From: Pyrenula massariospora
Lineage: Eukaryota; Ascomycota; Eurotiomycetes; Pyrenulales; Pyrenulaceae
NCBI GenBank assembly: GCA_021030905.1
Contig: JAGFMI010000001.1
Span: forward strand, 186,001 to 250,000
Direction of reading: 5' to 3'
DNA: 64,000 nt
The translations under genes and the position numbers were made by a program. Position 1 is the first letter of the stretch, and the number at the start of each line of letters is the position of its first letter. Shown in pieces: positions 11,003 to 45,803 of the stretch. The notes under the pieces are model-generated. The model had not been told where the DNA came from and ran no database searches. It worked only from the letters and a program-made list of their open reading frames with translations.

Positions 11003-13597
11003 TTACTTATCGGGAATGGTATCATCTTCTGACTCTGCTAGCCATTCTCCTAAATCTTCAATACGCCCTCGTGTGTTCGGGTGGTCCCTTCCTAGTGTTC
11101 GAAGAGATATTTCAACACATTTGCTCATAAGATCGACAGCTTCCATACTACGGTCTTGTTTTTTGTATGTATGTGCTAGGTCACTCTGGCCCGCTAAAGT
11201 GTTTGGATGTTCCTGCCCAAGTACTCGCAGACGGTTCTCTACTACCTGCTCCTGAAGTACCTCAGCCTCTTCCAAACGTCTTTGATAATAGTACGTTATC
11301 GCTAGGTTACCCTGGCTGATCCAGGTATCTGGATGTTTCTGACCGAGCACTCGCTTTCTCGCTTCCATTACCTCTATCTGAAGTGTCTCTGCTTCTTTTA
11401 ATCGTCCCTGTTCTCGATATGTTAATGCGAGATTATTCTGAGTATTTAAAGTATCTGGATGTTCCTGGCCGAGAACTCGCTTTCTCGCCTCTAATACCTG
11501 CACCTCGAGTGTCTCTGCTTCCTTTAATCGACCTTGGCTTTTATATGTCGATGCCAGATTATTCTGACTGATTAAGGTATTAGGGTGTTTTTCCCCAAGC
11601 ACTCGTTTTCTCGTCTCTATAACCTGCACCTCGAGTGTCTCTGCCTCTTTAAATCGATCTTGAGCCCAGTGTGTCGATGCCAGGTTATTCTGACTTAGTA
11701 AGGTAAAAGGATGTTCCTGCCCAAACACTCGCTCTCCCGCCTTTATTACCTGCATTTGGAGCTCCTCTGCTTCTTTCCATCGAGCTTGATTGAGGTAAGT
11801 CAATGCCAAGTTATTCTGGCTGAGTATGGTAACAGGATGTTCCTGGCCGAGCACTCGCAGATTCTTCTGTATTAACTGTACCTCGAGCTCCTCCGCGTCC
11901 TTCCAACGTCCTTGTAACTTGTATGCTGATGCAATCATTACCATACTTGCGAGGGTATCTTCATGCTCCAGTCCCAGTATTTGCTTCCGCGCCTCTAAGC
12001 TCTTTTGTGAAAATTCCTCTGTGTCAGGCCCATCCCCTCTATTAAATGCATACCATACTGCTCTGTATAGCAATGAAGCCCACTCTTCAAGTGATTCTCC
12101 ATTAGCTGGACGTAGAGTAGCTGCTGACCTGACATGGGCTATTAACTCTCGACATTTTGGCCAATTTTGGTATTCTCCTGTTTCGGGAAATGCAGTAAAA
12201 AGATTGTGAATAAACTGGCTCTTCCATTTCTCTAACTCTCCTTGGGCTTCTAACCATTCCCGGGTTGCGAACTGCACGAGTGCGTGCATTTCAAAGACGG
12301 GCGAGTTCGCATTGATTGAGATTAGTGCGTAGTCTCTAAGTGTGACCACGTCCTTCTCGAACGAATCATTCTGTCCGACTAACTCACCACTGCTAGGTCG
12401 ATCAACGTTTTCGTAGTTATACCTGTCTGAGTCCTCAAGACCGCCCCCTGAATCTTCCCGATTCCGGAGTAGAGCCTCCGGAATTCCTTGTCGGTCAAAA
12501 AAACTCATGAGCGACAAAAGATCGGCTGCCGATCGCCTTGTCTGACGAATATGTTGAAAAGATATCTGCCATGTGAGAATAATTGAATTTTTGGCTTCTG
12601 TATCTCTCCGCAGATATCCGCCATGCTGGTTCAATAAGTTCGTCTTGTCGCTGTCGCTTCGATGAAATTGCTGAACATATTTTTCTACGGAGAACCGTGG
12701 TTTCCTTTTCGAGATAAATGCAGCCGCTTGAACGATGGCAAGTGGTACAAACTCAAGCGTAGTAACAAGATCAACCAGACCTCCATCATCAGTCTCATCA
12801 TTCATTCTTGTCTTAAGAAGCTGTAATGACTCTGCCTCGTCCATTGGACCGACAGAGATGAGATCAAAATCTTCCACAAGCCCTTGTGCTGCACCTCGGT
12901 TCCGGCTTGTGATGAGAATCGATCCGTTCTGGCTCTCGGGAAGATAGACTTTAAGCGGTGGCTCGAAATTAGCGCTCTTTGGAGCCTGGAGCAGGAAATC
13001 TGCGTCATCAAGATTATCAAGGATCAGGATCCATTCCCTTTTATGATCGCGCAGCCAGTCATGCATAAGCTTAAATATATTGACTTCTGGCCTGTTCCGG
13101 CCAGGAATCTTGGCTTGATCTGCAAGGTCCCGGAAACTCTGTTCGAAGCGGTTTCTGTTGCTCGCATGTACCCACAAGACCCACTTATTCGGGAAACGAT
13201 CCCGAACTTGGTAGGAGTATTCGATGGCAAGTTGTGATTTTCTTTGTAGAAGTCAGCGGTCCTGAACTCCTGTGACTATTTTGTCAGGATACCCAACACC
13301 ACCCATCCCAACAAGCGCGACCCTCGATGCGGGTACTGAGCATTTCTTGTATATACGGTCGAGAAGTATTGGACGATTGACGAACAACGTGTCGCGGCGG
13401 AAAGGGACGGATGGGCGCGGGCTCGGTGGAGTCTCTGGTCGTTCTACGGATGAAAGATCAGTTACTCTCCATGTATTGTACGAAGCTACTTAAGATGGCT
13501 CACCAGGTGGGGGATGAAAATGGTTTGTCAATGGTCCACTGTTTTGTCCTATCTGGACGCCGGAATTGACACCATCAAAAAGTACGCTTGATGCCAT
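11003..13597 (-). CDS. NLR: RHIM/PP-like amyloid motif, NB-ARC, kinesin-light-chain-type TPRs
   Basis: Exons, in transcription order: 13597-13504, 13443-13293, 13241-11003; introns of 60 and 51 nt; 827 aa. Exon 1 codes 31 residues ending in a pseudo-palindrome, N-S-G-V-Q-I-G-Q-N-S-G (residues 11-21). A Pro-rich linker (TPPSPRPSVPFRRD) follows, then NB-ARC with P-loop GMGGVGKS (77-84, split by intron 2 in the last Gly codon), Walker B ILILDNLDD, an SILITSR sensor and a VPLAIVQAA stretch in the GLPL position. The C-terminal third is about seven TPRs of 42 residues (LGxEHPxTLxSQNNLA..). Known biology: fungal NLRs with such N-terminal motifs can pass an amyloid fold to a cell-death effector. The intron assignments restore both the linker and the P-loop, so I trust them. 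The end is less certain: the stop TAA lies in GATAAGTAAGT, which could be a splice donor to another exon. It acts as a cytosolic sensor by analogy; its ligand is unknown. Confidence 0.88.
11050..12010 (-). repeat. Tandem 126-bp TPR-coding repeats
   Basis: About seven head-to-tail units of 126 bp (42 codons) within the NLR. On the plus strand the text TGGATGTTCCTG or a near copy recurs about every 126 bases (around 11205, 11330, 11457, 11583, 11709, 11835 and 11960). Inner units are much more alike at DNA level than structure alone requires, which suggests recent duplication or gene conversion. Confidence 0.85.
13504..13597 (-). other. Exon coding the pseudo-palindromic amyloid-type motif
   Basis: The whole first exon of the NLR codes this motif and little else. 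Its core V-Q-I-G is the RHIM core (I/V-Q-I/V-G), flanked symmetrically by N-S-G on both sides. A separate exon would let the motif move between genes as a module. Confidence 0.7.
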
Positions 13598-20161: not shown

Positions 20162-21500
20162 CTATAAGCATTGAGAATAGTAGGCGTTGCTCACTGTGCA
20201 CGTGTAAGGAGCGGCGCAGACAGTCGGACCATTCCACCCAATGCCTCCACACTGCGCCCAATGAGCCGCTGTACTTGAGCTACTTGTAGCAGTGCTTGTG
20301 GCCGGTGCTGTCGTGGAGGCTTTAGTGGTCGTCGGTACTGCGCTCGTTGAAGTCGATCCACCGGTTGCCGTCCCGCCAAGTGCAGATAAAATGCCGTTGT
20401 AGGCGGGCTTCTTGTTCAAGTTTGCATCCCAGGGGAGTGCTGCTCCCTGCCCAGAGAAAGTGCTCGGGACCCAAGAGTATTTGTCAGTGTAGTCCCAAAT
20501 GGTGATACCCACACATCCTGTTACAGCCAAGCAGGCTTTGACCGTCGAAGCGTAGTCGGTACTTTGCTGCGCAAGAAGAGCGTCCGTAGAAGGCAGGGTC
20601 AGTCGTACGTCAAGCTCGGTAATGGCGACATCAACACCAAGAGCAGTGAAGGCATTCATGTTTGTTGTTTGCGAAGCTGTGGAAGGAGTAGAACCAACAA
20701 TAAAGTGAGATTGAAGGCCGACACCGTCGATCTTTGCTCCGTAAGCTTTAATCATTTTAACAATGTTCTGCGCTGCTGTGGATTTTGAACCTGGATTCTC
20801 AATGTTGTAGTCATTGTAGTAAAGTTTGGCGGAAGGATCGGCTGCAGCCGCCGTAGCAAAAGCGATTGGTATATAGGCTGGTCCGATGGTGTTGTAGAAA
20901 ACGTCGGCACGATAGGTACCATCATCATTCAGGGCCTCATTGACAACATCCCACGCATAGCAGGAGCCCTTGTAGTGAGTCACCTCATTCGTGATGTGAT
21001 TTTTCAAGGCCGCAATGAGTGTTGCGTTAGTCCAAGTGCCTGAGCTCACCCAAGAAGGAAGCTGGTTGTGCCAGACTAGATTATGGCAGCGTAGCTTTTG
21101 CCCGTTTTTCTTGGCAAGATCCCGGACCGCATCACCCTGCGTGTAAGTGAATGTATTCTGCGACGGCTCAATTGCATCCCATTCTGCAAGCCATAATTAA
21201 TCAGTAAGGCGCGTACAACAAAGCTAAAAATACTTTTTAAACATCACGAGATGTAGAAAAGAGACAAATGAGCTTACTCATCGAGTTCCCAGGCGTAGTC
21301 TGGCCGAAATCGGCCGTATTAGAAAGCTCGGCCACATAAGCGGTGTCAGTGAGTTCAGGGTTGTCTGTTGCGCTGCCAAAATAAAGTTTGCCTGCGGCCA
21401 CTGCAGCAGTATTCAGTCCAGAAGCAGCTCTAGCGACCGGAGAAGCTCCCACGCGATTCAAGGCGGCTAGGGCCGTGGCCAAGGAAACGAGGTAATGCAT
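20162..21500 (-). CDS. GH10 endo-1,4-beta-xylanase with CBM1
   Basis: Exons 21500-21278 and 21183-20162, intron 94 nt (GTAAGC...GCAG); 414 aa. Signal peptide [19 protein letters not shown], then the GH10 barrel: NSMKWDAIEPS (with the intron in the Lys codon), [14 protein letters not shown], acid/base Glu in [12 protein letters not shown] (about residue 155) and nucleophile Glu in ITELDVRL (about 264). A Ser/Thr-rich linker (about 45 residues) joins it to a C-terminal CBM1 with [10 protein letters not shown] and the four expected Cys, ending SQCL. It is secreted and hydrolyses the xylan backbone while anchored to cellulose. It is divergent from the SHMT gene with a 1.1-kb shared upstream region. 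The start at 21500 is chosen because it opens the signal peptide. Confidence 0.96.
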
Positions 21501-27756: not shown

Positions 27757-30700
27757 CTACGCCTCCGCCCTCACAGCCTCGCTAACGCACTTGCTCTTCC
27801 CGACAATCTGCCTGACGAGCTGGCTGATCGGCACATTGCTCAGCAACTGGAACACGGAGATATCAGCCTGGATCTCCGTGAAGATCCAGCTCCGAATCTC
27901 CACCGCGAGCAGCGAGTCGACGCCGTACCGGCTAACCGGCTTGGTCGCCTCGATGTCCTCGATGTCGACCATCAGCGACTTGGCGATCTTCTTGACCAGC
28001 GCCACGCTCACGATCTCGGCCGCGGCGTCCATGCTCGTTGCCATGGCGAGGAGCGCCTGCACTTGTGAGGTGTCCTCGTCGGTCTCGAGCTGCACCTGGT
28101 GCGTGTCGACGGCCTTGAGGTGCGCGAACTTGCTGTCATTGAACCACCAGGGGATCTCGAAGCCGGCCAGATTCGCCATGCCGCCCGTGCCGAGGCCCGT
28201 GATGAGCTGCGCGGGCACGGGCGCGTGGCCGCGGAGCGACTCGTGCGTGATGGCCGCCTGCACCATGGCGTGCAGCTCCTTCTCGCGGATGGCGGCGAAG
28301 TTCCACTTGCTCGTGTTGGCCGCGACGTCTGAGTTCTGGCTCTCGGCCACGTAGCCGACGTCGAGGATCATGCCGAGGTCGATCGAGGAGGTGGGGAGGC
28401 CGTGGCGGTGGCGGTGGACCGCGAGGGCGTCCTCGAAGGCGTTGCCCGCCGCGTAGTTGCCTTGGCCGCGGGAGCCGGCGATGCCGGCGGAGGAGGAGAG
28501 GAAGACGAAGAAGTCCATGTCCTTGGGAAGTTGCTCGTGGAGGTTCCATGAGCCTTGCACCTTTGGACGGATGGCAGATGTGTATTGCTCGTGGGTCATG
28601 TTTTGGTAGATGGCGTCTTGAAGAACCATGGCAGCTTGCATCGCTCCTTTGATCGGTGGGAACCGCTTCTCAATCTTCTTTAGAGTGGTCTTCAGAGACT
28701 CTGCGTTTGTAATATCGCAAGCGTAAGCCGCAACATTGGCGCGGTCTTTCTTGAGCGTATTAAGGGTGATTTGAGCCTCTGGTTTGGCGTCACCGGAACG
28801 AGACAGGAAAACGATGTTTTGTGCGCCGTGCCGAACCATCCACTGTGCAAGGGATCGACCAAGGCCACCCAAGCCGCCACTGAGAAGATAGGTTGACTTA
28901 GAGTCAAAGCGAATAGGTTTGACTTCCTCTGGGATCGTGGGGACCATATCATCGTCATGAGCTTCAAGAACAATTTTGCCCATGTGCTTTCCTGTCTGCA
29001 TCAAGCGGAATGCATCTTCCAGCTCGCTGAATGGCATCGTGGTAGTGGGCTGGATTGGCTTGACAATACCCTCGTGAAGAAGGCGCATAACATCTTGGAA
29101 GACTTCCGCACACTTGAGGAGATCGTGGCGGATCAATCCTACGAGGTTGACGGACTGGAAGCTGACGTTACGAATGAAAGGAGCCATGTCCAGCCCTGTA
29201 TTAGAAACTGCAAAATGCTGTCAGTATTCGTAGTCATGGTAAGTTTTGATGAAGAAAAGCATACCGATATCTTTTTTGCCCATTTCGACAAAACGACCGA
29301 ACCAAGCAATGCACTGCCACGAACGACGCAATGCTTCCCCTGCGAGGGAGTTGAGCACAACATCAACACCCTTGTTATCAGTCATACGCATGACACCAGA
29401 GACGAAGCTTTCGTCACGGCTGTTGAAGATATAATTTTCGTCAATACCGAAGTGTTCAACGAGTAACTGCTTCTTCGCAGCCGATGAAACGGTAGCAAAC
29501 ACCTTAGCCCCGAGATGTTGAGCCAGGACAATGGCAGCTTGACCAACACCGCCGGCAGCACCATGGATGAGAACTGTCTCGCCCTTCTTGAGCCTGGCGA
29601 GGTCGAACATAGAATAGTAGGCAGTGCTATACACCAATGGTAACGATGCAGCAGTCGAAAGATCCAACTCTTGCGGTACAGGGACACACATGCATGATGG
29701 CGATCGAAGGTAGTTGCGGAAAGCACCGATAGCCCAAGTCATCACACGGTCCCCAACCTTGAAATTCTTGACTTCAGGACCGACCCGGGAGACGATACCG
29801 GCACAGTCGAGACCAATCGCTTTCTCTTCGATTTGGCCCATGGCGACCATGACATCCATGAAGTTAAGGCCAACATCCTTCACTTCGATTTCGACGTCGT
29901 CGGGATTCAGTGGGAGGTCATATCCAATGTCATCATTAAATCGGAACGTGTCGAGGCGGCCGTGAGTTCCAATTTGGAGTTCAAGAGGGCGGCCTTCTTG
30001 CTTGAAAGGCGCAAGTTCCGGCTTGGGTTGCAGCAGCTGTCTTGATAAGAGATTGTTCATTCCATTCTCCAGCAAGATTCTTTGAACGAAAATTCTGTCG
30101 TGGCGAATAGCGTATTCCCAATCTGGACGAGGCTGATCGATCGCCTTCTCCGACGAAGCCAAAATTTGGAGGAAGAAGTCCACATTGGAGCCGACAGCGA
30201 TGGACTGCCTAAAGTCAAAATCAAGGGTCGTCAAAGAAACAGAAGGATTTTCAGCACGAATGCAGCGAGCCATGCCTGTCATGAGGTTGGCTGTGGGATC
30301 CTCACTTTCGATATTAGCGCCACGGGTGATCCATACGGAGCTCTTGGCGGTCATGATAAGGTGCTTGAGGCTGTCCCAGTTTTCGGCATCAATCTCATGA
30401 AGCATATGTTTGCCACTGTCTGCTTCAAGAGTGAAAATGCAAGTCTTAGCAGAGACATCAAGCTTCGCTGCATCGTGCAATTTTATGATCTCGACTGTGG
30501 TACCACGGGTTTCGAGGGCTGTGATGATCCTCCGCGTAAATTCAGAGAGCTCTTCATTAGGGCTTTCAGGTTCAACAATGATAGCAGCTCCGGGGAGTCC
30601 CTCAGGAGGCTGAATGGAAGCTGTAGAGACCATGAGAGAATAGAAGTGATCCTTCTCATTCGGAATATCGCGGAGAGCAAGATCCAGACCACTAAAGCCG

Positions 30701-33700
30701 TTGCGGGTCAGTACTTCATTCCAGGTGCTCTCGGTCATTGTCGGGCCCCATTCACGGCCATCCTTCTCACCAGCCCACCAACCTTCAAAAGAGCCGACAA
30801 TCATGTGAACACGCAACAGAGGGTTGGTGATTTCGCTCAGGACTAATTTTCCCGTTGGCTTCATAAGTTTCTTGACGTTCTGAAGTGTCTGATCCATGGA
30901 GGGTGTTGCGTGTAAGACATTTGCGGCGACCACAAGGTCATATTCACCGGCTTTAAGCCCTTGGGATAACACATCTTCGCTGATATCGAGCTTCTGGAAC
31001 TTCATGTATGGAAGCCATGGTTTGAATTTCTCCTGAGCCTTTTCGAAGAAGCCAGTGCTGACGTCAGTGAAAGTGTATTGAGAGAACCGTGGGGAACCGC
31101 CGTTTCTACCCCCTAGAGCCTCAAGTACCGGCAAAGTTGCGCCTCCAGTGCCAGCGCCAATCTCGAGAATCTTCAAATCCGGACTCTTATGGCCAAGGAG
31201 GTCAACATATTGTGCGAGTTGGGCATAAGTCTGAGGCAGTCCGAGACCACTCTGATACCAATTGTGAAGGAGATTATCTTTCATCAGCGACTCGATGGCA
31301 AGCGTCTTGCCTCGGAGAATTGAAACCAGATTTTCGCCGTGGTGACAAAGAACTCTACCATCAGGGGAGTCGCTAGCTACACGCTCCAATAATTTGTTTT
31401 CGTCCTCAGGGGAGATGTTTAGCCAGTCTGGACCCATATGTGCAATGGTCCCTTCTGCGACGTCTAACAAAGTCTTCTCCATAAATTGGTAGAACTTGTA
31501 GAAATGGGGTTCGAAACTCTTTGCTTCTTCTTTTGGACATTCAGTCATTACTCGCTTCATGTAGATAAAGCTAGCATGTTCTAGCTCGGCGATCTTGGAG
31601 GAAGGCACATCGCCAAGTTTTGAGAGGGAGCTACTGCAAAGAGAGCGGAGGCCTTCGCTGTCCAGTTTCGAAAGGTCCTCTTGCCAATGAAAGTATGCAG
31701 CAAGCTTGCGCATATTGGCCGCTTGAGCGAAGCCAAGCTCACCATGTCGAAGAGCCGTACTCTTAACTCCGTCGAAAGTGACCACGGGCCTCTCCCATCT
31801 GTCATCAAAGACAATGAAGGATGCATGCGCGTTCTCAAAACCCTCATTGTGAATATTGGCGGTCCCATGAAGCATCTTTCCAGCGTCCCTCGGAATGTCG
31901 GCGGAGACGAAGAGACGTTCAATGGAAGTAGGAATTGGGGCCACCTTCAAATCTTCGTCGGCCTTTGTAGCTCCAGCGAGACCCATTTGGATGCAGCAGT
32001 CCAGTGTGCTAGGATGAATGACGTGCGGGAACTCGAATTGATGAGGCATCAGAGCCTTGGTGTCTGGTATGCGGAGCTCGCATCGCGACTTAAAGTCGCC
32101 TCTCTTGACCCCAACAAGGCTCTTGAACGGACCCGAAAAACCAAGACCAATCGTTGCCAAATTTTCATAATGAGTTGCTACATTGGCATCCTTGTAACAA
32201 GCAGCTTCGACTGCGCGGAACTTGCGTTGGTAGTCAACACGGGCGAGGTCTTCTTCATCTGCAAATACAACGCTTTTCTCGGCGCCATACTTAGCACGGA
32301 CCAAACCAGTGCAGTTAAGTTCCCAGGTCTCCTCCCGACGTGAGAATATTCTGAATTCGTCCCAGTTGCTAGCAAGATCCTGTGAGCCACTGCGCCATGG
32401 TCGAAGGGAGAGCATAGTTTCTGTCCCACTATCATCTGGAGGGATGACGATAGCTTTGCCAACAATAGCATCACGTATTTCATAGCCTTCGACCACACGG
32501 GTTTTATCAGCTTGCTGTGCACAAGCTTCAATAGCCATGACCATCATGCCAGCAGCAGGATACAAAATAGTACCCTGAACTTTGTGGTGCTCAACCCAGG
32601 GGATCTCATTTAGCTTCATGATGTTGCGGAAGAGCGGCTCAATGCTGTTGCCCTCAGGAATAATCGCTCCTAGTAGATCAGTTCTAGCATGATTGCGGAA
32701 TCGGTATTGTTTGCTGATGTTCGATTCACTCCAATACTTGTTATTATGATTCCAGGCAAAGGGAGGGATGTCAACCAAGAAGCCATCTCTGATGAGGCCT
32801 TGTTCGTCTTGATTGGCGATGTTGGTCTTGACGGGGAAACCGTATTGGAATAGTCTCCCTATGGCCTCGAGAGACGTTGCAGTCGCGTTTTTGCCGCGTT
32901 GAAGTGCAGAGTAACAAGCAACCTCTGCAAACTTTTTATCCTGAGCCTTCAAAATCTGCTTCAATGGGCCTTGGAGTGCTGAGTGAGGTCCCAATTCAAG
33001 TAGAACATCCACGTATGGTTTATTGGCGCGTCTCTTTCCACCAGAGTAATGAATCATTTTCTGGACAGCACCCACGAACTCAACCTGAGATACCATGTTT
33101 TGAACCCAATAAGATGCGTCAAGCTGAGGGCCGCCGATCAAATCTCCAGTGACGCTGGAGAACATTTTGACATCATCGTCGCCGTCCGAGGTCTTGATAT
33201 CATGAAGAGCTCGGTGGTAGAGATCAGCGATCACTCGCATATGAGGTGAATGATAAGCTGTTTCCACAATGAGGCGGCGGGCGAAGTGACCATCAGCTTT
33301 GAGGAAGTCCTCGAGTTGAGCAATGGCGGTGGAGTCACCGGAGACAGTCGTGCTTGAGGGGCTATTCTTGCAGGCGACTACCGCGTTGCCATTGGTGATC
33401 TTTTCGATGTAGGGCTGAACCTTTTCTGCATCGAGGCCTGTGGCTAGCATAGAACCATTGATACTAGGAGCTAGCCCACGAATATTGGCAGACAATCTCC
33501 CACGATGGAATGAAATGGCCCACGCCGCCTCTCGGGAAATGGCCCCTTTGGCGTAGGCGGCAGCTATCTCGCCACTGGAGTGACCTGCCACAGCTGAAGG
33601 CTTGATTCCCCAATATCGTAGAAGGTCAACCAGAGCGACTTGCAATGCAGTGCAAATCGGCTGGGAAAATGCAGGTGAGTTTATCCGTGACGACTTCTCA

Positions 33701-35755
33701 TCAGCGAAGAATTCTTTCATTAAGGACCACTCTGCACCAATCGAGACAAGGTAAGTACTTGCATCCTGCAGGGAGCGTTGGAACACATCATAGGCAGACA
33801 ACTCGCGACCCATAGCGTACCATTGTGCTCCCTGTCCTGTGAAGATGAAGCCGAGCTTGGCGGTCCTTGGTGCTCTCTTAGGTTTAATAGTGGAATCTGC
33901 GAAGGTTTCGCAGAGCTCCTTGCCGGAAAAGGCAACTGCAAAGGAACGCCAAGGGAAAACACTCCGCTTAGAAGCAAGAGTGCGGGCAAACTTAGACAGG
34001 AGTTTCTTCTCTGACTTTTCGCCAACCGTCTCAAGCTTCTCAACAAGATAATCCCGGTAGAGGGACGCAGTGCGCTCAATGCCAGACTGTTCATTGGACG
34101 AGTAAACAAATAGCTTTGCAGGCTCTGGCTGATCGTCGGGAAGGAAATTGCAACCGCTCATAGACAGCCAGCCAGCAGATTTCGTACCGAGAAAGGCTGG
34201 TTTTACATCCGCAGGGTCCATGTCGATACCGGAATCAATTGAAGAAGGGGATCCGACGGCAACGAGTGTGTTATGGTTCCCTTTGAGATGACGAGCTTTC
34301 AAATAATGGTAGGCATCATCAATGATGACGTGGGCGTTGGCGCCTCCATATCCGAAAGAGTTGATACTAATACGGCGAGGACCTTCCGATGGCCAAGGGG
34401 TCAATTTCTGAACGACTTTGAGATTCCAGTCTTCCATTGGAATCCGAGCATTTGGTTTGTTATACCAAAGATTCGGGGGAATCTCTCCCTTCTCGAGCGA
34501 TAGAACAGCTTTAGTCACTTGGGCAAGTCCAGACCCACCTTCCAAGTGACCAATATTTGTCTTGATACTACCTATGAGAAGCGGGTCACCTTGCGGTCTG
34601 GATTTGGCAAGGGTGGCAGAGAGGGCCGCAGTCTCCTGTGGATCACCAGCTTGAGTGCCAGTTCCATGAGCCTCGACATACTGAGTGCCTGAAAGAGGCA
34701 AACCCGCTTCTGCGTAGCATCTGCGGATCAATTCCTCCTGGGAAGTTGCTGAAGGCACGGTAATTCCTATGGTAACAATTAGTATTCAGTTTAGCAGGCT
34801 GGCTTGAGAGCTTTACCTGGAGTGTTGCCATCCTGATTGCTTGCAGTATTCCTGATGATGCCGCGAATGACATCGTTGTCTTTGATTGCCTGGTGAAGCG
34901 GTTTTAAGACAGCGAAAGAAGCACCCTCTCCACGAGCGTACCCATTCGCTTCCTCATCAAAAGAGTGGCATTTCGAGTCGGCACTCAAGAATCCAAGGGC
35001 AGTCATAGCGGTCATAACTCCGGGCACGAGCATGAAATTCACGCCACCAACAATTGCTGTCTTAGATTCCCCAACCCGAAGCGATTGGCAACCCAGATGT
35101 AGAGCAACAAGAGCAGAGGAACAGGCAGTATCAATACTAATACTTGGACCGTGGAGGTCGAAGAACCACGAAATACGGTTCGAAAGAATGGCGGTCCCGG
35201 TACCAGTTCCATAATAAAGAGGGAGATCCTCCTGGTCGGCCGCCATCATTTCGGAATAGTCTTTTGAGAAAGAGCCAACGTAAACCGAAGTGTCCGACCC
35301 AACCATGTCCTCCATGCGAAGACCAGCTAACAAAAATCAGCAGTTTGACCAAGATGGTTGTACACGTGCATACCGTTCTCCATGGCCTCGTAGGCACACT
35401 CAAGTGCCATACGTTGCTGCGGATCCATCGCTTTGGCCTCGTTAGGAGTGATAGAAAAGAAAGGAGCGTCAAATGCAGCAATGTCCCGGTCCATGTAATG
35501 GCCTCCACGAACATTGATTGCTCCAGATCGCTCATTGTAGGGGTGGTAGAAAGAGTCAATATTGAAGCGGTCTTTGGGGACCTCGGTCAAGGCACTTCTG
35601 CCTTTGGAGATCATGTCCCAAAGCTTCTCAGGGTTTGCCGCGTCTCTGGGGAATCTTCCGCCTAGGCCAATGATGGCGATCGGCATGACCGGTTCATCCC
35701 CCTTCATAGACCCGTCATAAGGACTGCTTGCGTGCTGGAGATTAGGACTAAACAT
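27757..35755 (-). CDS. Highly reducing iterative type I polyketide synthase, KS-AT-DH-MT-ER-KR-ACP
   Basis: Exons 35755-35374, 35326-34817, 34766-29265 and 29207-27757; introns 47, 50 and 57 nt; 2614 aa. Domains (approximate residues): KS 22-450 with DTACSSALVALH, EAHGTGTQ and KTNIGHLEG; AT from about 600 (FTGQGAQW; GHSSGE near 693); DH near 1023 (HKVQGTILYP; HPSTLDCCIQ); C-methyltransferase near 1500 (ILEIGAGTGGAT); ER about 1900-2140 (HGAAGGVGQAAI); KR near 2242 (SGGLGGLGRSLA; SSSAGIAG; GNYAAGN); ACP Ser near 2561 (GVDSLLAVE). All catalytic motifs look intact, so a methylated, fully reducible chain is expected from acetyl/malonyl-CoA and SAM. There is no C-terminal thioesterase, reductase or NRPS module, so release needs a partner in trans. 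No such partner is adjacent. The next gene upstream is 4 kb away. Product unknown. Confidence 0.96.
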
Positions 35756-42646: not shown

Positions 42647-44065
42647 TCAAAAAGCCCCCTTAATCCCCTCAACAAGGTGCTGCAAAAGCGCCCTAACCTC
42701 CGCAATCTCCCGCGAGCACTCCGTCCCTACGCCGACGCCGCCAGTGAAGCTCCGCTCGTCCCCCGCCTCGCACACCACGCGCTGCAGCTTCGCGAGGTGG
42801 AAGTCCATGGTCGTCAGGTGGATGGCGTTGGCCAGGGCGCCGCTGGCGTAGTGGTGTTTTGGGGGGGAGGGGATGCTGGGGTCGACGTCGAGGTTGATGG
42901 GGGAGACTTGGTCGGACGCGGAGGAGGGGGTGGGGGAGGGGTGGTGCGAGTACGGGCGGGAGCTGGGGGTTGCGGGGGAGGAGAGGGAGGTGGCGAGGGC
43001 GCGGTAGATGGTCAGGACCATGCTGATGGCGGTGCTGGTGAGCATGGTGGCGGGGTTGGAGTCTGAGGGGTGCTCGGAGATGGATGAGAGGGTGCTGGTG
43101 CTGGGGTGGGCTGAGGCGAGGACGGTGGGGACCACGTCGCAGAGGGTGGAGATGGTGGCGAAGAGGGTTTCGCGGCGGGTGTCGCTGGAGTGGGAGGGGG
43201 TGCTGGGCCAGGACTGGCCGTGCTCGAGGCGGAGGGAGTGGAGGATTTGGGAGAGCGTGCGGTAGGTGCTGGGAGAGGCTGCGTCTGGTTGAGTTGGAGG
43301 CGAGCCCCACGAGTTGGTGTTCGTGTGTGCGGTCTGGAGGCGGTGGAGACTGTGTGCCTGGGTGTAGGAAGGCGGTTTTTGAGGACTCAGCGTTGGGATC
43401 TTGCTAGAGTCGGGAAATTGGAAAGAGTTGCTCCTCGATTGGGGAGTTGGCATATTGAAGGAGTTGGTGGTAGCACTAGGATCAACGCTATAGCTGGTGT
43501 GATGAGAACGCTGAAGAGGTTCTGGAGCTGGACGCTGTATTTTGGCTGGAGAGCTTTGCTGTGGTATTGGATACGCGGTTGGTGTTGGCGACAGTGGCAA
43601 ACTCGATTGATCGAAATTAAAATCCAATGAAGTAGGTAGATTGCCTGCCTCCGCCCACTCGAATGCGCAATCGTTGGTGCCATCAAGCATTGGAATATCG
43701 TAGGTTGAAGGGCAAGTGTTGAACATATCAGAGGATGGGCTGCCCAGCTGCTGTGGCTGCTGAGTTGGTTCCTGCTGAGTCTCATGATGCTGCTGTGACT
43801 CTGGCTGTTCCTTTATTGTAGTCGCTCGAGCCGTAGGGACAGATTTTTTTCGTTTTTGCTTGCGGTCTTCGCGGCTGCTCCCCTTTCGGGGTCGGCCCAT
43901 TTCGTCTCGAGGAGAAAATATGCAAATACGGCCAGTGTTTTGACAATTGCTACACGCTCCAGGACCTGTAGCCGGGCAACGTATCTTCCTCGTATGGCAG
44001 GCGTCGCAAGCATCACGATGCTTTTGTAGCTGAGTCTGGGGCGCCTCCATGGTGGTAGTAGACAT
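42647..44065 (-). CDS. Zn2Cys6 transcription factor
   Basis: Single exon of 472 aa. The binuclear zinc cluster is at the N-terminus: six Cys at residues 20, 23, 30, 38, 41 and 48 (CDACHTRKIRC, CSNC, C), followed by SPRDEMGRPRK and a basic stretch (REDRKQKRKK), probably both DNA contact and nuclear localisation. A Gln-rich region (residues about 85-110) and long Ser/Pro/Thr-rich stretches follow. The C-terminal part (ATMLTSTAISMVLTIYRALA, and DFHLAKLQRVVCEAGDE) has helices like those of regulators from polyketide gene clusters of the AflR type. It is the only regulator in the window, 8 kb from the PKS, so it is a candidate pathway activator by location only. Its DNA is GC-rich in the C-terminal half. 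Confidence 0.9.
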   Translation of the reverse strand: MSTTTMEAPQTQLQKHRDACDACHTRKIRCPATGPGACSNCQNTGRICIFSPRDEMGRPRKGSSREDRKQKRKKSVPTARATTIKEQPESQQHHETQQEPTQQPQQLGSPSSDMFNTCPSTYDIPMLDGTNDCAFEWAEAGNLPTSLDFNFDQSSLPLSPTPTAYPIPQQSSPAKIQRPAPEPLQRSHHTSYSVDPSATTNSFNMPTPQSRSNSFQFPDSSKIPTLSPQKPPSYTQAHSLHRLQTAHTNTNSWGSPPTQPDAASPSTYRTLSQILHSLRLEHGQSWPSTPSHSSDTRRETLFATISTLCDVVPTVLASAHPSTSTLSSISEHPSDSNPATMLTSTAISMVLTIYRALATSLSSPATPSSRPYSHHPSPTPSSASDQVSPINLDVDPSIPSPPKHHYASGALANAIHLTTMDFHLAKLQRVVCEAGDERSFTGGVGVGTECSREIAEVRALLQHLVEGIKGAF

Positions 44066-45803
44066 TAGATTTTTATAACACTACTTTTCGAGAAAATGCC
44101 GGTGGGAGATATCTTCGCTGACGAGATGTTGCTGACCGAGTACACTCTTGGTTGACAAGAAGCGAGATGAAAATGAGCTTTACTAAAAAGATTAATTCGT
44201 TGAAGAACTAGTCCCTGTCCCCTTTGAAGGAGCTCAAGATAGATTTTCATATAACAGAAGCAGAGAATTTCTATTGACGGAAATGCACGTTGATCTTATA
44301 TGAGACGCGGGAGGCCTTGGGGCAAGGATAGCTGAGGGGAACGGTACAGCCTGCATACCTTTAGAGTGTGCATAAAGTTGTGTTGGTCCGGCTGGTAAGA
44401 AAAAATTGAATGTAACTTTTGCGTCTTTTTTCCTTCTTTGGGATCACACCAGATGCTCTACATTATTGGAGCGAATGAATCGAGATTCAAATCCCAGATC
44501 GAGATCGGCAAAAGGAGGTAGTAAAAGTTACACTGTGATATTTTGTGACGAACACACAGTGAATGGGGCTAGCTACCTCAATAATCAATGTACAGTCAGT
44601 CCGTACTGGAACCGTTTCGCAGCTCCACTTTCGGTGGTACTGTGCGCCAAGAGTTGCGAAACGTCTCCATTAAGCTGCTAAGACAAAAACTATAATTATG
44701 AGCTTTCCTGCGATGTTAAAATGTGACCGAATCAATTTCACCCGTATCTTAGTGTTAGGCTGAAGAGATAATATGTGTCGGCTGGCAGAACCCTTGGCCA
44801 CTGTGGAACCGCAAAATCAGCTCGTCTTTGGTCGTCACAACGGTTGATAGAAGCTAAGGCTGATAGGTACCCGTAAATACCGGTATACGCGTAGGATCGG
44901 AGGCGGCTTAAAGGTGTAGTCGCCTCGCTATCTGAGCCATCCTACTGGTAAAGCTGTAGCGGACTTTGGAGAATTTGCCATTCCGAATTCAGTGACTAAG
45001 CTATGGATATGTTGAGCGAGTCATCTCGGCAATGGGGCGAGGTACAGCGTGTGCCTCTGCCGAAAGCATGGATTAGAAAGTAACCGATGATAGTCGTCCT
45101 CCGACTCCCGTTCTTGTTTATGTGGGGCCTGAGCTCATCAAGCGGGCCGAGAGTCTTGGTCCATTAGTGTGTGGGTGTGTGTTCCTTTGTCTCTGTGTAT
45201 AGGGCTCCTCCTGGGCTCCCTCCCGGGCTCCCTCCCCTGGAGAGCTCCCCGGTCTAAGCTGCAGCTAGCCACACGCCAAAGGCGCTATGGTGATCCTTGC
45301 CAGAAATACGTAGCTTCCAGAACGAATACGGTTGCGTAATGTCGTACAAAGTGGTTTTGCTGGCCGCAAACAGGCAAGAGCACTGGCTCTTAGTGCCATG
45401 ACACTCTGTCAGCAGCATTGGCATTGCCATGTGGTGCAATTCAAATAAAAGATTCTTTTGAGTGGCCATATAAGTCGGATTAAAGCCGAGCTCTCGTGGT
45501 GGGTCCGCAAGTGGGGAGGGACTTCTGCTCTGATCTACCGGAAAGCGGGCATCAATGCATCATCCATGGAGAACTTTCTCAGGGTCTACACCTCCAGAAG
45601 GAGGGCTCAAGCGCTCCCATTTCCAGAGACCAAAAAAGCAATATCTGGTTGCCGGATTGGGAAGACCGACATGAGCTCGGTCAGCTCGGTCGTTTTGTGG
45701 GCTGAAGTACCCAAAAGCCACCAGCGTGGGTGTGGCCAAAGTGCACAATGTAAGCGTCATAGACTAAGCTTAAATTCAGATAAACAAATCACATTACGAG
45801 CTG
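44066..45803. other. Upstream region of the regulator; gene-free
   Basis: Holds the regulator promoter. No other supported gene. A short CTCC-rich run (GGGCTCCCTCCC repeated) lies near 45205-45240. Confidence 0.45.

Follow-up and report, generated by a model that had tools for sequence, protein, structure and literature searches.

A gene on the minus strand of the window, by which we mean the whole stretch of 64,000 nucleotides of Pyrenula massariospora DNA analysed here, very probably encodes an NLR of the PNT1 type, with a PP motif, an NB-ARC domain and a TPR array. On sequence evidence the NLR probably acts through a PP-type relay, with a HeLo-domain protein encoded elsewhere in the genome among its targets. 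The window sits on contig C11, and the candidate target on contig C8, of an assembly of 37.8 Mb in 33 contigs. The two proteins form an added candidate receptor-executioner pair for the fungal PP/RHIM-like relay. Systems of this type are already known; less ordinary are that the partner is unlinked, and that it lies beside its own NACHT-type NLR, which has a weaker PP-like N-terminus.

The NLR gene runs from 13597 to 11003 on the minus strand, in three exons that code 827 amino acids and a stop, with an intact reading frame free of internal stops through the NB-ARC and then the TPR region. Its features are the following:

13504..13597, minus strand: exon 1, 94 nt, made up of 31 codons and one further nucleotide, with the PP motif
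13511..13579, minus strand: PP motif, residues 7-29, with the core NSGVQIGQNSG at 13535-13567
13444..13503, minus strand: intron 1, 60 nt, GTGAGC...CCGTAG, splitting codon 32 behind its first base; join kept in relatives
13293..13443, minus strand: exon 2, coding the Pro-rich linker and the first part of the NB-ARC domain, up to the P-loop
12647..13354, minus strand: NB-ARC domain, residues 62-280, split by intron 2, with the P-loop GMGGVGKS (PF00931, 34.3 bits, cut-off 23.5)
13242..13292, minus strand: intron 2, 51 nt, GTATCC...CAAAG, with a GCTGAC branch-like site, inside the P-loop
11003..13241, minus strand: exon 3, remainder of the NB-ARC domain, DUF7779, TPR array and stop
12248..12544, minus strand: DUF7779, residues 315-413 (PF25000, 29.4 bits, cut-off 27)
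11012..12019, minus strand: TPR array of 42-residue repeats, about residues 490-825

Exon 1 codes MASSVLFDGVNSGVQIGQNSGPLTNHFHPPP. Both introns have GT-AG ends, and their removal restores the frame and conserved sequence; the splice joins, placed by consensus and homology, give back ERPETPP and GMGGVGKSQLAIEY, stretches common to the listed relatives. The sequence-only reading of this DNA had proposed an exon of about 31 residues with NSGVQIGQNSG spliced to the NB-ARC region, and the intact three-exon model, with joins conserved in relatives, agrees with it. The unspliced long frame (11003-13252) does begin past the P-loop, as had also been claimed. The further suggestion, that a single-frame gene finder could miss the exon, is right about this late start, but exon 1 is included in the public gene models of most listed relatives. 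Several TPR families score above their Pfam cut-offs, and part of the array, 11323-11858, repeats a 126-nt unit in tandem with 77% matches.

The build is that of PNT1 in Podospora anserina, a PP-NB-ARC-TPR NLR (PMC12881547) whose ORF is interrupted once, by an intron of 54 bp at nt 95-148 (PMC7885112). NLRs of this type are recognised by an NB-ARC domain followed by TPR, which the window NLR has (PF00931 at 34.3 bits and the TPR families), and it also shows the exon 1 of 31 codons with an intron from nt 95 that is seen in Podospora PNT1. The order of PP motif, NB-ARC and TPR, the start of the first intron and the 31-residue first exon are thus shared with the published Podospora gene, whereas the second intron, in the P-loop, is not a feature of the one-intron PNT1 described there (PMC7885112). 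TPR number is reported to vary in Podospora pnt1 (PMC7885112).

The motif in exon 1 has a G-(hydrophobic)-Q-(hydrophobic)-G core, GVQIG, at residues 13-17. The Pfam family PF17046, termed "PP (misnamed SesB)" (PMC12261475), matches residues 11-24 at 20.0 bits in a scan of residues 1-65. The search with a PP model that had been suggested for this gene thus returned a match, but one below the cut-off of 23.2, which is a database threshold and lies outside the definition of a PNT1-type PP-motif NLR; PF17046 was not listed at E <= 0.001 when the whole protein was scanned. We built our own PP profile from 24 relatives, none of its rows coming from the P. massariospora genome. With this profile residues 7-29 score 31.2 bits within the whole protein, and residues 1-31 alone score 39.0 bits, the best shuffle giving 8.8 and none of 2000 shuffles reaching the real score. 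Wojciechowski and co-workers assigned 296 NLRs to the main PP class, NLR07, and located the majority of PP motifs at positions 5-9 (PMC9815663). The window motif, with its G-phi-Q-phi-G core and a profile match from residue 7, differs in nothing essential from that class as it is reported there (PMC9815663). By these matches the N-terminal motif is assigned to the known PP class. It is very improbable that the resemblance is due to chance or that the gene model is wrong and exon 1 lies outside the transcript: exon 1 is short and its splice sites are predicted, but the annotated N-termini of its relatives are of this kind, none of 2000 shuffles scores as high, and intron 1 begins at the ORF position at which the intron of the published PNT1 begins (PMC7885112).

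The gene had also been thought akin to RHIM proteins, and this part of the claim holds for the PP class and the VQIG core but does not extend to homology beyond the core. The RHIM of animal RIPK1 and RIPK3 has the core I/V-Q-I/V-G. Residues 14-17 of the window NLR, VQIG, have this form, and the core alone is alike. Searched against solved structures, our PP profile gave three matches (best E 0.25) and no RHIM among them, a weak test with so short a motif. The RHIM link is thus limited to the short G-phi-Q-phi-G core, and we do not class the window motif as a RHIM. Partial cross-seeding of the animal RHIM with Podospora PP has been published (PMC7885112).

A search with residues 1-330 of the window NLR found 2755 relatives, the closest 120 of which are listed. 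The PP motif is present in 114 of these 120, with scores higher than any that 2400 shuffled N-termini reached; the six under the threshold are P0090, P0097, P0109, P0110, P0114 and P0116. Among the listed relatives outside the profile, 90 of 96 also exceed the threshold, some being near-identical to profile rows. The sequence-only reading had named a lack of similar motifs in related NLRs as what would count against it; these relatives do have the motif, and the description of the gene as a PP-type amyloid-signalling NLR stands as the best reading. Residues N11, G13, Q15, G17 and G21 are 93-100% identical among the aligned listed relatives (116-118 of 120), and the residues between them vary. 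The core position occupied by I in the window NLR is Ala in 55 and Val in 42 of 116 aligned listed relatives. A regular expression run over all 120 found a hydrophobic core in 44, a QA or EA core in 55 and neither in 21; Ala-core relatives (among P0001-P0120) often read QAGIINGPV. PP and RHIM motifs have I or V at this position, and since 55 of the 120 listed relatives have Ala, conservation by itself is no proof of amyloid function. The motif starts within the first 25 residues, with no preceding effector domain, in 94 of the 99 listed relatives that have a core by regular expression. In one relative, P0008 of Cenococcum, it lies between a weak alpha/beta-hydrolase region (14.8 bits, under the cut-off) and the NB-ARC domain.

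A genome-wide search for a second protein with the motif had been suggested, and such a search leads to a HeLo-domain protein on C8 whose C-terminus carries the same motif. Run against all six frames of the genome, PF17046 gave three matches up to E 10:

C8:648662-648727: match in locus L012, 31.6 bits
C8:148497-148541: match at the C-terminus of the HeLo protein, 21.7 bits
Exon 1 of the window NLR: match at 17.8 bits

The HeLo protein (C8:147792-148571) is coded by one open frame of 260 aa. Its HeLo domain (PF14479) scores 117.9 bits over residues 8-193, the cut-off being 23.2, and its tail matches PF17046 over residues 236-250 at 22.0 bits, which is also under the 23.2 cut-off for that family. 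With our own PP profile the tail scores 29.5 bits, and no shuffle of 2000 does as well. The pairing with the NLR is reciprocal. In six-frame searches of the 37.8 Mb genome, the 31 residues of exon 1 returned only themselves and the C8 HeLo tail (57% over 21 residues, E 0.0475), and the tail in turn found nothing but its own sequence and the window exon (55% over 22 residues, E 0.026). Taken one by one, these E-values are weak, and both searches scored two candidates only and missed the L012 motif, which PF17046 ranks first, so the exclusivity of the NLR-HeLo pair is bounded by the reach of the search. Aligned with each other, the two motifs are identical at 12 of 21 positions (score 69, matched by none of 2000 shuffles). 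Published identities of PP motifs within the Podospora and Chaetomium clusters are 32-48%, and the alignment lengths may differ from ours (PMC7885112). The weight of the pairing comes from the reciprocity, the pairwise score against shuffles and the position of the match at the C-terminus of the HeLo protein.

Of the 20 reported PF14479 matches in the genome, this protein is the only one with a PP tail in its open frame; the count is a lower bound, and three of the 20 have in-frame stops. Another of the HeLo proteins, L029 (C10:484358-484912), has NTGAQLG between its HeLo domain and a DUF7580-like C-terminal region. A search for relatives of the C8 protein gave five at E <= 0.001. Three of these, P0121, P0122 and P0124 (from Pyrenula and two other sources), have by eye a PP-like tail with the core GLQQG, which is not hydrophobic, and score 2.8, 1.1 and 0.7 bits with our PP profile; P0123 stops short of the tail, and in P0125 the tail is broken. 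HeLo proteins that end in a single PP motif were mentioned already in 2015 (PMC4518210), and the C8 protein is of the same kind, with nothing essential seen to differ from what is said of them there. Like Podospora HELLP, the candidate partner combines a membrane-targeting helical domain with a C-terminal PP motif; unlike HELLP, which is described as HeLo-like (HELL), it has a HeLo domain (PF14479) and is encoded on another contig than the NLR (PMC7885112).

The two halves of the proposed pair exist elsewhere as one chain. Protein P0054 of Arthroderma has the order HeLo, PP, NB-ARC, TPR. It is 37% identical to the C8 HeLo effector over nearly the whole length of the latter, motif included, and 55% identical to the window NLR over the 330 residues searched. 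Its core, GFQVG, lies between the HeLo and NB-ARC domains; since this motif supplied 1 of the 24 rows from which the PP profile was built, its score with the profile does not count as independent evidence. The first 270 residues of P0054, used as a query, gave 11 proteins, P0054 included. Among them P0126 of Microsporum matches P0054 in the order of its parts and has a weaker motif (17.9 bits), and P0127 has neither the core nor a PP-profile match. P0128-P0130 combine the HeLo domain with WD40 repeats; their PP match reaches 20.4 bits in P0128 and about 3 bits in P0129 and P0130. P0131 runs from an NB-ARC part through TPR and an internal methionine to a HeLo domain and, at the C-terminus, a PP motif (24.5 bits with our profile, 32.2 bits with PF17046), and looks like two back-to-back genes read as one; P0132 resembles it, without a recognised motif. 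Another protein, P0134 of Xylaria multiplex, has a NACHT-ankyrin region followed by HeLo and a C-terminal HET-s repeat region, with a HET-S-type match before the NACHT domain, and could represent two neighbouring genes, for an NLR and an effector, annotated together. In the Arthroderma and Microsporum fusions the motif thus stands at the junction of the same two halves that are coded here by two unlinked genes. With fused, apparently tandem and unlinked versions in existence, the effect of splitting receptor from executioner is directly testable.

The fusions also bear on an alternative reading, in which the motif serves as a conserved linker of non-amyloid nature, or is the relic of a split HeLo-PP-NB-ARC-TPR fusion, and signalling has been lost. 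Its position between HeLo and NB-ARC in the fused relatives would fit this, as would the Ala core in almost half of the listed relatives. We consider this reading improbable, as the five key positions are 93-100% identical although no effector domain precedes the motif (94 of 99 listed relatives), and the separate HeLo protein retains a matching C-terminal copy. It also accords poorly with the closest paralogue found (about 40% identity) among eight NB-ARC loci compared, L014 (C22:1027000-1034500), which has a SesA domain (27.9 bits, cut-off 26.3) in that place ahead of NB-ARC-TPR, and no motif by eye or PF17046 match. L014 has an apparent intron at the same P-loop place as intron 2 of the window NLR.

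The reading of the motif as a live PP relay leaves the choice of partner, on which the neighbourhood of the C8 HeLo gene bears. About 530 bp away, a divergent gene encodes a NACHT-type NLR:

C8:147262-144298, minus strand: NACHT-type NLR, L013 1763-1, then L039, with its start at C8:147262 and the end of its second frame at C8:144298

Its exon 1 has a partial NPHP3_N match at 20.9 bits, under the cut-off of 24.8, and its long second frame begins GKSTLMKHL. The N-terminus of the predicted protein is identical to the C8 HeLo tail at 10 of 23 positions (score 54, reached by none of 2000 shuffles), and the two have in common an N-x-x-G spacing that is one residue longer. With our PP profile it scores 4.9 bits, which 29 of 2000 shuffles reach, and we call it only PP-like because of this poor score. 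L012 (C8:644500-652500) is a further PP-motif gene, on the minus strand from 4243 to about 3361. Its N-terminal PP motif, on an exon of 106 nt, scores 28.8 bits with PF17046 (over the cut-off), and aligned with the window motif it is identical at 12 of 30 positions (score 41, reached by 3 of 2000 shuffles). A GT-AG intron would link this exon to a helical region that is weakly PigL_N-like (18.4 bits, under the cut-off); a frame for a WW domain comes after it, in the same gene or a separate one.

These loci raise the main rival to our reading, in which the relay is real and the C8 HeLo protein is not the partner; the readings overlap in part. The window N-terminus would be a PP amyloid receptor motif directed to another protein, perhaps L012 or another effector, and the HeLo protein would serve the NACHT-type NLR only. 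The divergent layout at about 530 bp is a usual one for clusters, the longer spacing and the 10 of 23 shared residues point the same way, and L012 offers a PP protein with some likeness to the window motif. We nevertheless think this rather unlikely: the HeLo motif is closer to the window motif (69, 12 of 21) than to the NACHT N-terminus (54, 10 of 23), the window and L012 motifs reach 41 together, the window and HeLo motifs find each other when searched against the genome, and the NACHT N-terminus itself scores only 4.9 bits with the PP profile, as 29 of 2000 shuffles also do or better. As a tentative possibility, the HeLo-PP executioner may be a shared hub for the divergent NACHT-type NLR and the unlinked NB-ARC-TPR NLR of the window; two receptors of different build would then feed one amyloid relay. 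In plants, sensor NLRs feed a helper in a parallel way. The missed L012 motif and the poor scores of the tails of the effector's relatives hold the hub reading at this tentative level, and the main reading at probable. It has been proposed in a review that amyloid relays let several NLRs address one effector (PMC5485727), and with two receptors and one effector this idea becomes testable here.

From the parts of the window gene and the published Podospora work, in which residues 1-31 of PNT1 are prion-forming and activate the HeLo-like protein HELLP (PMC7885112), we infer the following mechanism. A ligand would bind the TPR array and the NB-ARC domain would oligomerise, gathering several of the 31-residue N-termini, which would nucleate a PP-type amyloid. 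The amyloid would template the matching C-terminal motif of the separate C8 HeLo-domain protein, and the freed HeLo domain would attack the plasma membrane, so that the hyphal compartment dies. The window NLR would in this way control cell death.

A PP motif common to an NLR and its effector or effectors is also the arrangement of PNT1, HELLP and SBP in Chaetomium globosum (PMC7885112, PMC5485727). The three Chaetomium genes are described as linked (PMC7885112, PMC5485727), whereas no effector domain was found in the 18 window ORFs scanned; the scan took in 16 of the 22 ORFs of at least 200 aa besides the NLR, plus two shorter upstream ORFs, and left out five that overlap larger ones and shorter frames, and genes of short exons could be missed. 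None of the 20 genome PF14479 matches falls in the window, and the candidate effector does not adjoin the NLR, the C8 HeLo gene being on a different contig. The partner is thus unlinked here, and both characterised systems, in Podospora and Chaetomium, are gene clusters. Non-adjacent NLR-effector pairs have been suspected from co-occurrence in a genome survey (PMC9815663). The scanned window ORFs code for metabolic enzymes, hydrolases, a polyketide synthase and a regulator, or fall in no family. They include a highly reducing polyketide synthase in two long frames (27757-34785, minus strand; KS, AT, DH, MT, ER, KR, ACP), a Zn2Cys6 regulator frame (42647-44080) and a GH10 xylanase with a CBM1 domain (20162-21196, minus strand).
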